A DNA stretch of 40,411 bases, taken from NCBI GenBank assembly GCA_003650785.1, contig QMRW01000002.1:1-40411 (forward strand), in the 5' to 3' direction. The notes beneath the pieces are model-generated. The model did not search any database. It worked only from the letters and a program-made list of their open reading frames with translations, and was not told where the DNA came from. The translations under genes were made by a program, and so were the position numbers. The DNA is from Thermoprotei archaeon. GTDB taxonomy: Archaea; Thermoproteota; Thermoprotei; Thermofilales; B20-G17. Below are positions 22,901 to 28,279 of the stretch, in pieces; the stretch's first letter is position 1; each line of letters opens with the position of its first letter.

Positions 22901-23275
22901 CTATTGAGCCTCCACTTTAATATTTACTCGTAATCCTTCTTTTAAGTTTCTAAGAGTGTGTAGGTACTCATCATGTTCCAATCTGCCTAGAATAGTAACT
23001 CTTCTTGTTAACCTCTGTGACTTAAGTGCGATATAAATGCTCTTAGTAGATGGGGAATAGAATACATCTCCTACCTCTACTCGTGTAGTAGGCTTCTCTA
23101 AAATTGAGGAGGCTCCGAGAGGGATCTCTACAAGTCCCTCTCCTATGCGATATACTCTACACTTACTCGGTATATTCCCTATAAGTTTACTAGTACAAAG
23201 AGGGGCCTTAATACCATCTATTATCAATACTGCTAGCACTCCGTCCTTCGTTTCTAGTATTACCCTATATTTCAA
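22901..23275 (-). CDS. Cyclophilin-like (TM1367/DUF369-type) protein, tentative
   Basis: A 124-residue beta-rich protein. The stretch RVEVGDVFYSPSTKSIYIALKSQ, followed by RRVTILGRL, resembles the cyclophilin-like domain of the TM1367 family, whose members share a fold with peptidyl-prolyl isomerases but lack proven activity. The opening strand YRVILETKDGVLAVLIID also fits. It heads a minus-strand group of three genes and is divergent from the presumed arcade operon, sharing an intergenic palindrome with it. Confidence 0.55.
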   Translation of the reverse strand: MKYRVILETKDGVLAVLIIDGIKAPLCTSKLIGNIPSKCRVYRIGEGLVEIPLGASSILEKPTTRVEVGDVFYSPSTKSIYIALKSQRLTRRVTILGRLEHDEYLHTLRNLKEGLRVNIKVEAQ

Positions 23276-23350: not shown

Positions 23351-23566
23351 ATGAATCTCTCTCAGTTTAAAGATCCGAAGGATGCACTAAAATACCTTAA
23401 AAAAGAAAGGAAGAGGCTTGAGAAAGAGATGGAATTATTACTTAAGAAAAGAGATAGAGGAGAGATTGATGATGAGGAGTTCAATAGTAAAAAGAGAGAG
23501 ATTGAGAGAAAATTTATAGAGATAATGGATAGAATAGCCCAAATGAAGTACTTATCTGGTGTTTAA
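23351..23566 (+). CDS. Short coiled-coil protein heading the arcade operon
   Basis: A 71-residue highly charged helical protein. Residues 10-33 form a heptad-like coiled coil (ALKYLKKERKRLEKEMELLLKKRD), then a SHOCT-like turn (GEIDDEEFNSKKREIE) and a second helix. So it looks like a helical hairpin, a form that can oligomerise or bind filaments. Seventy-odd bp separate it from crenactin on the same strand. I do not know it as an established arcadin; a cytoskeletal role is inferred only from position and structure. GGTGACT precedes the ATG. Confidence 0.6.
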   Translation: MNLSQFKDPKDALKYLKKERKRLEKEMELLLKKRDRGEIDDEEFNSKKREIERKFIEIMDRIAQMKYLSGV

Positions 23567-23634: not shown

Positions 23635-23655
23635 TAACTATTGAGGTGGAAGATA

Positions 23656-24921
23656 ATGAGCGATCTGGAAAAGTATAAACTCAAGTATGCCTTTGCAGAG
23701 GATTATGGTACTAGCTACTATAAATTTGGACCTGTTGGAGAGACACCAGACATAATAGAGAATAGAGGTATAATACTGGACAAAATATCCATAGTTTCAA
23801 AAATCATGGGTATTGAAAAAAATATTATAGTCGGTCCCGAAGTAGCCACCTATATAGGACATAGAGAGGCTATAGGAAGGCATTTAGTATATCCTATGAG
23901 AGATGGTCTAGTGGAAAAAGAGAATGAAAGAAGTTGGAGAGTAATCTACGAGATCACTAAGTACGGACTTAATAAACACAGACCCATAGCTTCAGATTTT
24001 AAAGGATTCTATGTAGCTGCTGCTCTCTCAGCTATAGCACCAGAATACATGTACCGGAGGATCTTCGAAATACATCAGAAGATAGATGAAGAAACGGGAT
24101 TAGTTAAGGCCGTCACTATAATACCTCAGCCCTTAGCTGTTGCTATAGCAGAAAAATCCATAACCTGTATAGTGGTGGAGTCAGGACATGGTAATACGCA
24201 GATAACTCCTATCTCTAGATACCCGATTAGAGAGGCTATACTCTCCCTCAATAGAGGAGGAGCAGAGGCAGATGCCATTACAGCAGAGATCTTAAAGGAT
24301 TGCGGATATGGCGATCTAGCTAGAGAAGAGAAACTGATAAGATGTATCAAGGAGTCGATAGGTCTAATACCTACTGACTTGCAGACTAGTATTGAAAAAG
24401 CAAAAAAGGACCCTGAGAGATTTAGAGCAGTATTCCACATACCGAATACTACTATTACGATAGATTTAGAGGAGAACTCATGGATGAGATTCTTGATAGG
24501 AGAGATAGTATTCGATCCTGAAAACGAAATATTTGAAAGTTTTTACAGAAAAGGAATGCCTAGACCGAGGGATACAATGGTTGGCGATACGAGAATTCCT
24601 GGAACCATAGACATGGCTAGAGCTATTATAATGTCAGCAGAAAGGACATCTTTCGAGGTACAAATGTACCTCTATAGAAAGATAATACTTAGTGGTGGAA
24701 ACTTCTCATGGAAAGTTCCTAGAGGTCTTGAAGATGCAGCAACTGATGCGGCAACTAAAATCATGAGTATGCTTAAGAAATACAACATCGAAGCTAGGGT
24801 AGAGCTAACAAAGGATCCCATGTACTCGGTGTGGAAAGGTGCACTTGTCTATGCAATAGCAGTTCCAGATGAATATGAGTGGAATTGGGAAAGTATGGAA
24901 GGTTGGTATAAGTGGAGGTAG
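23656..24921 (+). CDS. Crenactin, archaeal actin homologue
   Basis: A 421-residue filament-forming ATPase and true structural relative of eukaryotic actin. The phosphate-1 loop is in AFAEDYGTSYYKFGP, the phosphate-2 loop is VVESGHGNTQITPIS (Gly177-His-Gly), and the adenosine region is IILSGGNFSWKVPRGLEDAA. The phrases LNRGGAEADAITAEILKDCGY and FLIGEIVFDP correspond closely to Pyrobaculum crenactin as I remember it. The ORF track starts at TTG 23641; I choose ATG 23656 because GAGGTGG lies 6 bp before it. In Pyrobaculum crenactin forms helical structures along the cell and is linked to rod shape. The downstream gene begins 10 bp after its stop. Confidence 0.95.
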   Translation: MSDLEKYKLKYAFAEDYGTSYYKFGPVGETPDIIENRGIILDKISIVSKIMGIEKNIIVGPEVATYIGHREAIGRHLVYPMRDGLVEKENERSWRVIYEITKYGLNKHRPIASDFKGFYVAAALSAIAPEYMYRRIFEIHQKIDEETGLVKAVTIIPQPLAVAIAEKSITCIVVESGHGNTQITPISRYPIREAILSLNRGGAEADAITAEILKDCGYGDLAREEKLIRCIKESIGLIPTDLQTSIEKAKKDPERFRAVFHIPNTTITIDLEENSWMRFLIGEIVFDPENEIFESFYRKGMPRPRDTMVGDTRIPGTIDMARAIIMSAERTSFEVQMYLYRKIILSGGNFSWKVPRGLEDAATDAATKIMSMLKKYNIEARVELTKDPMYSVWKGALVYAIAVPDEYEWNWESMEGWYKWR

Positions 24922-24931
24922 TGTACTCGAA

Positions 24932-25639
24932 ATGAATTCCATAGAGGACTTTAAAGAAGTAATAATCGAGCACTTTCGTAGAAGAGGATGTACGCGACCT
25001 CAAGTAGATATATCTGAAGATGTCATTAAGCAAGTGGATCTAGTACTTCAGGATGCTAATAACTTATTAGCCTTTAGAATATTTCGTGGTATAGTATACT
25101 CCGCAGCGGAGTTCAGAGTAATGATAGATGAAGAGATACTTAGAGCTACTAAATTAACCGAGGTATTCGATAAAGTGTACATAGTGATTCCAGATACTTA
25201 TACCGACATGGCTAGATCAGTGATAAGTGGTAGAATTCTCGATGAAGTAGGAATAGGGATTATAGCAGTAGATGAACATGGTAATGTAGAAGAACTCCTA
25301 GTACCCAGACCTACAAAACTTACTCGAAGAGAACTAGGAAAGGGAATAGAAGAGATAGTAGGTGACCTAAGGCGGAGAATAGATGAAATAGAACTACTTT
25401 ATAACTCACTAAAGACAGAGTTTGGAGTACTGTCCGAAAAAATTACTAAAATTGAGAGAACTCTTAGCATGCTCAGAGAAGAGGTAGATGTACTCAAAGG
25501 AAAGCTATCTACCCTACCCACTAGGCATGAAATTATTGAAGAAATAGGTGAGAAAACTCTTGCTCCGGTAGAGGAATTACCTTCCTTCGCTAAGAATAAT
25601 CCTTGGCTTGAGATTCTTAGAAAACGGGAGAGAGAATGA
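24932..25639 (+). CDS. Arcadin-2-like coiled-coil protein with a degenerate nuclease-fold domain
   Basis: A 235-residue protein in three parts. Residues 1-125 follow a PD-(D/E)XK-like order (helix, VDLVLQD, LLAFRIF, FDKVYIVIPD, VGIGIIAVDEHG) but have Ala-Phe-Arg where the active E-x-K would be, so it is likely inactive. Residues 131-192 are a coiled coil (IEEIVGDLRRRIDEIELLYNS and on). The C-terminus is a short amphipathic helix, NNPWLEILRKRERE. Arcadin-2 of Pyrobaculum is a coiled-coil protein whose C-terminal helix binds crenactin's hydrophobic groove and limits filaments; the same gene neighbourhood and tail make this the likely counterpart. I start at ATG 24932, after GGAGG; the track's 24869 lies inside crenactin. 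Its end overlaps the next gene by 4 bp (ATGA). Confidence 0.65.
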   Translation: MNSIEDFKEVIIEHFRRRGCTRPQVDISEDVIKQVDLVLQDANNLLAFRIFRGIVYSAAEFRVMIDEEILRATKLTEVFDKVYIVIPDTYTDMARSVISGRILDEVGIGIIAVDEHGNVEELLVPRPTKLTRRELGKGIEEIVGDLRRRIDEIELLYNSLKTEFGVLSEKITKIERTLSMLREEVDVLKGKLSTLPTRHEIIEEIGEKTLAPVEELPSFAKNNPWLEILRKRERE

Positions 25640-25821
25640 CAGAAGTAGATGAAACTAAGTTAATGAGGGAAATCTTAGACTTGATAGATAGTAGAACTGA
25701 CTATGACGAAAGTGTTAAAAAGTTGGCTAAGGATATTCTCATAACCTTCAAGAGAGAGGGGAAGAAGGGAGTTGAAAAAATAATTAACAAGTTAATCGAG
25801 GGAATTAGTTCCGATGTCTAG
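25636..25821 (+). CDS. Small helical protein of the arcade operon
   Basis: A 61-residue all-helical protein, rich in Lys, Asp and Glu: KLMREILDLIDSR, then YDESVKKLAKDILITFKREG and VEKIINKLIEGI. It overlaps the arcadin-2-like gene by 4 bp and the Rad50-like gene by 8 bp, which implies coupled translation and a joint role. I do not recognise a family. Its position next to an SMC-like ATPase suggests an accessory subunit, by analogy only. Confidence 0.65.
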   Translation: MTEVDETKLMREILDLIDSRTDYDESVKKLAKDILITFKREGKKGVEKIINKLIEGISSDV

Positions 25822-28279
25822 AGGTTTTAGAATAGAAAGCCTAGAGATAGAGGGATTTAGAGCATTTAACCTACCTCGTAAGTTCAAGTTAGGAGATGCT
25901 AGATTCATATTACTGATAGGGCCTATAGGCTCAGGCAAATCCTCAGTTCTAAAAGCTATAGAATACGCTCTCTATGGTTCCTCCTACGAGATTACTAGAC
26001 TAGGACCAGTTAGATTAAAACATGAAGATGTGATAAACGATTTCAAGGATATGCTGAACATAGAACTTGTACTAGGAGGAGAACATGAACTAAGAGTGGT
26101 CAGGAGTAGAAAAAGAGGAGGAGTAGGTAAACTAAGAGTTTACATCGATAATAGACCTGTTAAAGGTGAAGCTGAATCCTTTCTCAGAAGCTGTATAGTA
26201 CTGGGTCATGAGGATTTTCTAAGAGAAATAGTCATACACCATCTCATACTAAGAGATATTGTTGAAGGTGGTCCAGTAAGAAGGAGTGTAGCTTTAGATA
26301 GACTCTTTGGCATAGAGATGTTAGAGCAGACATACAAAAGCATACCACTAACCATAGTTGAGAAGAAGATAGATGAACTTAAGATGAGAATAAAGGAAGT
26401 AGATCTAGAACTAGCTAGAATAGGTTCTCTCTACACTCCTCAAGAGTTAAAATCCTTAGAGGCGGACATTGAAAGACTTCGGGAGAAAGTATCAACTATT
26501 CAGCAAGAGTACGACTATATCGAGAATCTACTCACAAAACTTGAAGAAGCTAGACTGAAGTATGGACTACTTCTAGAGAGATACAGTAACTTAGAAAGTC
26601 AACTAGAGGATATAGAGAAGAGACTAGAAGAAGTAGAGGAAGTAAGTACAGTAGAGCTTATTTCAGACATGGAGGATGTACTTGAAAACACAATTTCATT
26701 CCTCCGAGATATGTTATATGAGGATATTATTAAAGAGATCCCGAGAGGAGATGAGATATCGCTTAGTGAAAAAGTACTCAAAAGTACTAGTAAAGCTCTC
26801 GACGTAGTAAGTAGTATAGTAAGAGACCTGGAATTTAAGCTAGAAGACCTAGTGAATGAGAGGATGGAGTATAAGAGAAGGTATGATGTACTACGAAGTA
26901 GAAAACTAGACCTAGAGTCGGAAATAGAGAGGTTACTTCATTATCGCTATGAATATATGAAGCTTGTTAAGAAGTATGGAATACCAGATGACATAGAGAA
27001 GAGAATAGAGCAAAAGGAATCAGAATTTCTAAGACTCAATCGTAAGAGTAGGCAGTTAAGAAATCTGTGGGATCTCCTTAAAATACTAATAGATAGACTT
27101 AGATTGGAAAAAAAGATAGAGTGCCCTGTATGCGGTAGCAAACTCGTAGAGGATGATCTGAAAAAGATATTGGAGAGAAAAGACAGATTGGAAAAGAAAG
27201 AACTAGTAGATACTATTACAAGGATGGAGAGAATAGAAAAAGAGATTGAAAAATTAAGAGAGATTCTGGATAGAATTAAAGAGTTAGAGGAGAAAGTCAG
27301 AAAACTAGAGGAACTGGAGTTAGAGAGAGAAGAACTAGAAAGAAAAACATCGAAGTTAAACAACATACTTCAGCATGCTGAGGAAAATATCCATATAGTA
27401 AGAGATAAAATAGGAAGAGCCAAACATTTAGAAGTAAGATTACAAGATCTAATAAGTAAACTGAGCACCTATCTTGAAAGAAAAGATCTAATTGAGAAGC
27501 AAAAGGAGCTTCATAGTAAATTAAAGAGCATTAAAGAAGAGTTGGAGAAATTGAAGTATGAAGAAGATAGGTACTTAAAATTAAAGAAAAAGAGAGAAGA
27601 GCTGAGGAGGACACTGTTCGAAAATAGAGTTAAGCTGGAGAGTATGCTCAAGGACTATGAAAGAACGAAAAAAGAGCTGGAAAAGGCTCATTATTTATTC
27701 AAAAATAAGGAGCTATTAGAGAAAAAATTAAGAGATCTCGAGACACTACATAAGCGTCTTAAGAGTGTTAGAAATCTCCTAAGAGTAGTACAAGCTGATC
27801 TTAGGACTCGCATGCTAGAGAGGATAAGGAGTAACATGAATAAGACCTTCAGACAACTCTATGTACATCCAGATCTAGTAGAGGTAGATATAAGAGCAGT
27901 CGAGGTAGCCAAGAGGAGTATATACGAAATATATGTAAGACGAAGTAGTGATGGAGAATGGGTGCCTATATACTCGAAACTCAGTGATGGTCAAAGACTA
28001 ATGATAGCTCTATCCCTACTTCTCTCTATATACAAATTATATCCACATAACATAGATTTTATATTACTAGATGAACCCTTTGCTAACATAAATGGAGAAT
28101 GTAGAAAATCTATTCTCAAACTCCTAGCGAGAACCGATAGTCCTCAACAGGTGCTCATAGCAACGCAAGACGAAACTATAATAAGTCTTATAAAAAAGAT
28201 AATCGATAAGGACAAGATAATAGTATACAAACTAACCTATGGAGGAGTAGAAGGCCCTAGAGTTACTAGGATACATTAG
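25814..28279 (+). CDS. Rad50/SMC-like ATPase with zinc hook (arcadin-4-like)
   Basis: An 821-residue ABC-type coiled-coil ATPase. Walker A is GPIGSGKSS (36-44); two long coiled coils flank a zinc-hook CPVC at 437-440 in the exact middle; the C-terminal head has the signature KLSDGQRLMIALSLLLSIY (SDGQ in place of Rad50's usual SGGE) and Walker B IDFILLDEPFANING. No Mre11, HerA or NurA gene is next to it, as would be expected for true Rad50. In Pyrobaculum the arcade cluster includes an SMC/Rad50-like member, arcadin-4; this is the likely counterpart. It may dimerise through the hook and organise DNA or filaments. It is 7 bp from the radical SAM gene. Confidence 0.85.
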   Translation: MSRGFRIESLEIEGFRAFNLPRKFKLGDARFILLIGPIGSGKSSVLKAIEYALYGSSYEITRLGPVRLKHEDVINDFKDMLNIELVLGGEHELRVVRSRKRGGVGKLRVYIDNRPVKGEAESFLRSCIVLGHEDFLREIVIHHLILRDIVEGGPVRRSVALDRLFGIEMLEQTYKSIPLTIVEKKIDELKMRIKEVDLELARIGSLYTPQELKSLEADIERLREKVSTIQQEYDYIENLLTKLEEARLKYGLLLERYSNLESQLEDIEKRLEEVEEVSTVELISDMEDVLENTISFLRDMLYEDIIKEIPRGDEISLSEKVLKSTSKALDVVSSIVRDLEFKLEDLVNERMEYKRRYDVLRSRKLDLESEIERLLHYRYEYMKLVKKYGIPDDIEKRIEQKESEFLRLNRKSRQLRNLWDLLKILIDRLRLEKKIECPVCGSKLVEDDLKKILERKDRLEKKELVDTITRMERIEKEIEKLREILDRIKELEEKVRKLEELELEREELERKTSKLNNILQHAEENIHIVRDKIGRAKHLEVRLQDLISKLSTYLERKDLIEKQKELHSKLKSIKEELEKLKYEEDRYLKLKKKREELRRTLFENRVKLESMLKDYERTKKELEKAHYLFKNKELLEKKLRDLETLHKRLKSVRNLLRVVQADLRTRMLERIRSNMNKTFRQLYVHPDLVEVDIRAVEVAKRSIYEIYVRRSSDGEWVPIYSKLSDGQRLMIALSLLLSIYKLYPHNIDFILLDEPFANINGECRKSILKLLARTDSPQQVLIATQDETIISLIKKIIDKDKIIVYKLTYGGVEGPRVTRIH

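Follow-up and report, generated by a model that had tools for sequence, protein, structure and literature searches.

The gene directly downstream of an archaeal actin raises the question of what its product does to that actin and, in particular, whether and through which protein the actin is joined to DNA. The window examined here (the whole stretch of DNA analyzed, 40,411 nucleotides of contig QMRW01000002.1 from a Thermoprotei archaeon) contains a crenactin cluster, and the order crenactin, arcadin-2, arcadin-4 was found to be kept among relatives by synteny comparison:

23641 to 24921, plus strand: crenactin (phmmer against P. calidifontis 4cj7/5ly3/5mw1; NCBIfam NF053560)
24932 to 25639, plus strand: arcadin-2 ortholog, 235 aa (family alignments A1 and A4; family profile)
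25636 to 25821, plus strand: 61-aa ORF in the place of arcadin-3, a candidate by position only
25814 to 28279, plus strand: arcadin-4, a Rad50/SMC-like ATPase (NCBIfam Rkd4/arcadin-4 NF053563; synteny)

The crenactin ORF, whose start codon is likely at 23656, matched the solved P. calidifontis crenactin (4cj7/5ly3/5mw1) at E 2.9e-111 by phmmer and the NCBIfam crenactin model NF053560 at E 4e-184 (612 bits, below the cut-off of 630). The arcadin-4 ORF matched NF053563 at E 3.8e-96 (323 bits, below the cut-off of 860), and a Pfam search with the 61-aa ORF gave no convincing match. Upstream of crenactin lie a cyclophilin-like ORF (22901-23275, minus strand) and a 71-aa SHOCT-like coil ORF (23351-23566, plus strand), the places of which are kept in several relatives.

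The initial annotation had called the ORF at 24932-25639 an arcadin-2-like protein, and orthologs, synteny and the family profile uphold both the ORF and its assignment. It begins 10 bases past the crenactin stop (24921); an upstream in-frame ATG at 24869 (256 aa) was rejected as the start, as it would overlap crenactin and the orthologs begin near 24932. A profile made from the window protein together with close orthologs (alignment A1) retrieved the crenactin-adjacent proteins of Pyrobaculum/Thermoproteus-type genomes (family f9) at E-values of 1e-14 to 1e-26. Three of these are called arcadin-2 by NCBIfam, and proteins named by NF053561 were matched at E 6e-19 (L187) and 2e-16 (L179), leading us to conclude that the window protein is arcadin-2. 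It is too divergent for a direct match to the NF053561 model, which found none, and the Vulcanisaeta arcadin-2 likewise falls far under the cut-off of that model (E 1e-8). We do not take this cut-off, which serves for naming and belongs to a model centered on Pyrobaculum/Thermoproteus, as a defining feature of orthology. Adjacency to crenactin, as in the arcade cluster, was found in the window (23641-25639) and is conserved in relatives. A PDB sequence search with the whole protein returned noise only, mostly from the coil, and a scan of viral contigs found no relative.

As far as arcadin-2 of P. calidifontis (Rkd2, NF053561) is described in the excerpted text of PMC5173319, the window protein resembles it in its crenactin-adjacent place, N-terminal core and C-terminal Trp helix; those excerpts do not mention a nuclease-like fold of the core or the presence of its tail on further proteins. 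Open-access literature searches found nothing on either an arcadin-2 nuclease fold or tail-bearing DNA-binding proteins (subscription papers, e.g., Ettema et al., 2011, lay outside their scope). The notion that the protein is a special fusion new to this genome was not borne out, the same architecture occurring in arcadin-2 across the family. Its parts are the following:

24932 to 25306, plus strand: residues 1-125, a PD-(D/E)XK-like domain, predicted to be catalytically dead (AlphaFold2; VIA-align)
25061 to 25081, plus strand: the strand of residues 44-50 (NLLAFRI) in the place of the E-x-K motif, with A47-F48-R49 instead (AlphaFold2 secondary structure; column counts)
25328 to 25513, plus strand: residues 133-194, a single long helix with a heptad pattern, probably a coiled coil (AlphaFold2; sequence)
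25568 to 25636, plus strand: residues 213-235, the putative crenactin-groove tail, VEELPSFAKNNPWLEILRKRERE (tail profile; place of the P. calidifontis 187-203 peptide, PMC5173319)

The AlphaFold2 model, made with 41 orthologs, had a mean pLDDT of 87.5 and mostly exceeded 90 over residues 1-125, where the order of elements is H4-17, E37-41, E44-50, H58-75, E81-87, H88-97, H100-106, E108-113, E119-123. Foldseek placed the XisH-family protein 2okf on top (E 6.7e-4), and VIA-align gave Z-scores for the core of 10.3 for PaqCI, 10.1 for 2okf, 9.7 for 2inb, 8.4 for AF1548 and 7.5 for 2vld, a repair endonuclease from P. abyssi, with BamHI, FokI, EndoMS and the RPB5 N-terminal domain as lower-ranked matches. 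Structure prediction and structural search thus both returned the PD-(D/E)XK fold that the initial annotation had proposed for these residues. The strand in the E-x-K place does read LLAFRIF, as had been noted, and the alignment columns confirm the missing acid: at position 47, where E-x-K has its E, none of the aligned orthologs (sets of 23 and 41) has D or E. Because this acid is absent from all of them, we read the domain as catalytically dead family-wide, a fold relative and not a nuclease. It has the fold of the XisH family, PaqCI and NucS (Z 7.5-10.3) but lacks the acid in the E-x-K strand, and no sequence match was found.

Nucleic acid binding is frequent among PD-(D/E)XK folds, and the excerpted text of PMC9723716 relates a report of arcadin-2 lying between segregated nucleoids; both would suit the earlier view that arcadin-2 itself joins crenactin to DNA via this domain. 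We consider that quite unlikely, however, because almost every ortholog has an acidic version of the domain (net charge -9 in the window protein; means of -2.8 and -3.9 in two sets), and because the domain has lost its catalytic acid and has a fold also seen in structural proteins, among them the N-terminal domain of RPB5. Of the proposed link to DNA or to a partner protein the DNA part is therefore disfavored, and we take the domain as a putative docking module.

Behind the domain the model contains both the long coil and the C-terminal helix that had been foreseen, as a 62-residue helix at 133-194 (pLDDT about 98) and a helix at 224-234. The tail follows the pattern LPSFxxxNPWLxxLxxR, and that of the window matched the 23-column tail profile, of which it is itself one of the 48 rows, at E = 8e-13. 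The tail is conserved beside crenactin across the phylum, with C-terminal forms like DNEWVRILRSRGR in the f9 arcadin-2 proteins, and in the window protein it is judged not to be a chance resemblance. Its suggested equivalence to the crenactin-binding tail of P. calidifontis agrees with its C-terminal place and its predicted Trp-centered helix. For the latter protein the excerpted text of Izore et al. (PMC5173319) reports that the C-terminal 17 residues bind to crenactin in its hydrophobic groove and depolymerize filaments (Kd 31 nM; structure 5LY3, with Trp among the main contacts), that the tail binds crenactin monomers, and that the peptide has the same groove and orientation as ParR on ParM (4A62). 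Arcadin-2 would most likely dimerize through its long helix, and the helix at its C-terminus would plug the groove in competition with the D-loop, so that crenactin would be sequestered or capped.

Searching 60 relatives with arcadin-2 produced additional places that matched the coil and tail only, and full reading of these matches revealed proteins that differ from arcadin-2. Their other domains are helix-turn-helix (HTH), ribbon-helix-helix (RHH), C2H2 zinc-finger, winged-helix-like or membrane, and in 120 of 123 cases no more than 10 residues separate the tail from the C-terminus. The HTH-coil-tail protein of the window's own genome (G000:C6:19513-20025) has GerE over the Pfam cut-off, as are Sigma70_r4_2, HTH_23 and zf-C2H2 in other carriers; carriers with winged helix, AbrB and most RHH have weak Pfam matches only. 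An RHH_1 match over the cut-off (E 4e-9) was obtained in genome G247, the five tail proteins of which are arcadin-2, an HTH, a C2H2 zinc-finger and this RHH protein, and one unclassified; the RHH assignment among carriers is taken from L216 only, AlphaFold2 of the RHH-like L080 alone being poor (pLDDT 63). In genome G133 crenactin is directly followed by a gene (L221:2583-3770, G133:C70, minus strand) that does not encode a nuclease-like arcadin-2; its product combines a coil and a weak tail, DLPDAAKDNPWAGIL, with hydrophobic segments that probably span the membrane.

The HTH-coil-tail protein, the most conserved carrier, is near-universal in the sampled crenactin-bearing Thermoproteia, including the window's and the Pyrobaculum-type genomes. 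Its profile had a match in 52 of 61 genomes, although in a few (e.g., G008) this is just a coil-and-tail match to arcadin-2, and the tail stands at the end of all 50 HTH proteins read, the divergent f9 form RNVWISLLRSK included. We infer that these other tails bind the same crenactin groove as arcadin-2. It is conceivable, if very unlikely, that they bind another conserved partner and that crenactin is bound in arcadin-2 only, the one protein for which binding has been demonstrated; tail-like proteins are indeed encoded by a few genomes in which no crenactin was found, namely four of the window's own order (57-90% complete) and G227 (98% complete), the latter with an 86-aa coil-and-tail ORF (L219:544-804, G227:C4). 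Against this, the tail co-occurs with crenactin over 397 phylum genomes (72 both, 307 neither, 15 crenactin only, 3 tail only; Fisher p 7e-60, inflated as kinship is ignored, and with much of the signal contributed by arcadin-2 itself). Thirteen of the 15 crenactin-only genomes belong to f9, with divergent tails under the threshold that were confirmed in some by reading arcadin-2, and G133, where a membrane-type protein with a weak tail takes the place of arcadin-2, is also among the 15. In addition, a profile search did not find the HTH-tail protein in five genomes of the crenactin-less families f10 and f12, in which no tails were found either. The tails also co-vary by lineage: across 41 genomes, the similarity of arcadin-2 and HTH tails was 51.0 within vs. 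44.3 between genomes (BLOSUM62 units, p 5e-5), and the 17 residues upstream of the tail had no such effect (p 0.33). Two tails that track a single partner would be expected to co-vary in this way; alternatively, the pattern could come from tail exchange between genes within a lineage.

Our main reading, to which we assign a probability of roughly 60%, is that the shared tail is a module that binds the crenactin groove, found on several unrelated DNA-binding domains and, in one case, on a membrane-type protein, that it couples crenactin to varied cargoes, most of them bound to DNA, and that its DNA-binding carriers tether crenactin to DNA as ParR does with ParM. The occurrence of the tail on DNA-binding proteins suggests a direct physical link between actin and DNA in these archaea. 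The fuller proposal, in which genome-encoded DNA-binding adaptors, the HTH-coil-tail protein first, hold crenactin by the tail and so link actin to the nucleoid, is tentative, with somewhat less than an even chance of being correct. The likeness to ParR-ParM (4A62), drawn here from sequence, lies in a DNA-binding domain (RHH in L216) followed by a C-terminal helix. ParR-ParM, however, serves plasmid segregation, whereas the tail proteins are encoded in archaeal cellular genomes and have several unrelated DNA-binding domains. The likeness would be one of working only, and we do not file the HTH tail proteins as a ParR system. No parC-like repeat array was found beside the HTH-tail gene in the loci inspected, and its neighborhoods in three genomes, judged by eye, had no obvious common neighbor. 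One 13-bp repeat pair lies upstream of the HTH gene of the window's genome; it is not enriched in the genome, which with one mismatch allowed has seven matches vs. three for a reversed control.

In animals, G-actin binds the RPEL motifs of MRTF and changes MRTF activity. The tail-bearing DNA-binding proteins could similarly be crenactin-sensing transcription regulators whose activity is altered by a free monomer on the tail, with no filament tether. The sigma70-r4/LuxR-type HTH of the most conserved carrier is typical of regulators, partition-site-like repeats were not found near its gene, and the P. calidifontis tail binds monomers and depolymerizes filaments according to the excerpts of PMC5173319, all of which would fit such a sensor. 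We regard it as rather unlikely and favor the tether, because the varied DNA-binding domains and the membrane-type L221 fit a general tether more readily than a single regulon, although sequence alone does not separate the two.

Thermoproteales are said to be without FtsZ and the ESCRT division machinery, crenactin and the arcadins being the most likely candidate only (PMC7617429). Searches of the window's genome found neither FtsZ nor Snf7/CdvB, the Snf7 control being weak (a Sulfolobus match only, below cut-off). If the tether is real, it would constitute a DNA-coupled archaeal actin in organisms for which FtsZ and CdvB/ESCRT are not known. The conserved tail would mark probable crenactin partners, giving a list of interactors, many with DNA-binding domains, and the effect of crenactin on the chromosome would become directly testable with short tail peptides.

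The number of tails per genome varies. Among the matches listed in the phylum search there was one per genome outside the window's class and two to five within it. The window's genome has a second tail, ELPSFAKNNPWLEVLRRRR (L002, G000:C133:3538-3630), on a protein cut by the contig end, and a Pyrobaculum-type genome has a second, weak match to the arcadin-2 model (E 7e-4) in an 83-aa ORF (G042:C1:301765-301887). The arcadin-2 of G010 (L121:1486-2247, minus strand) has the crenactin tail twice in tandem at its end.
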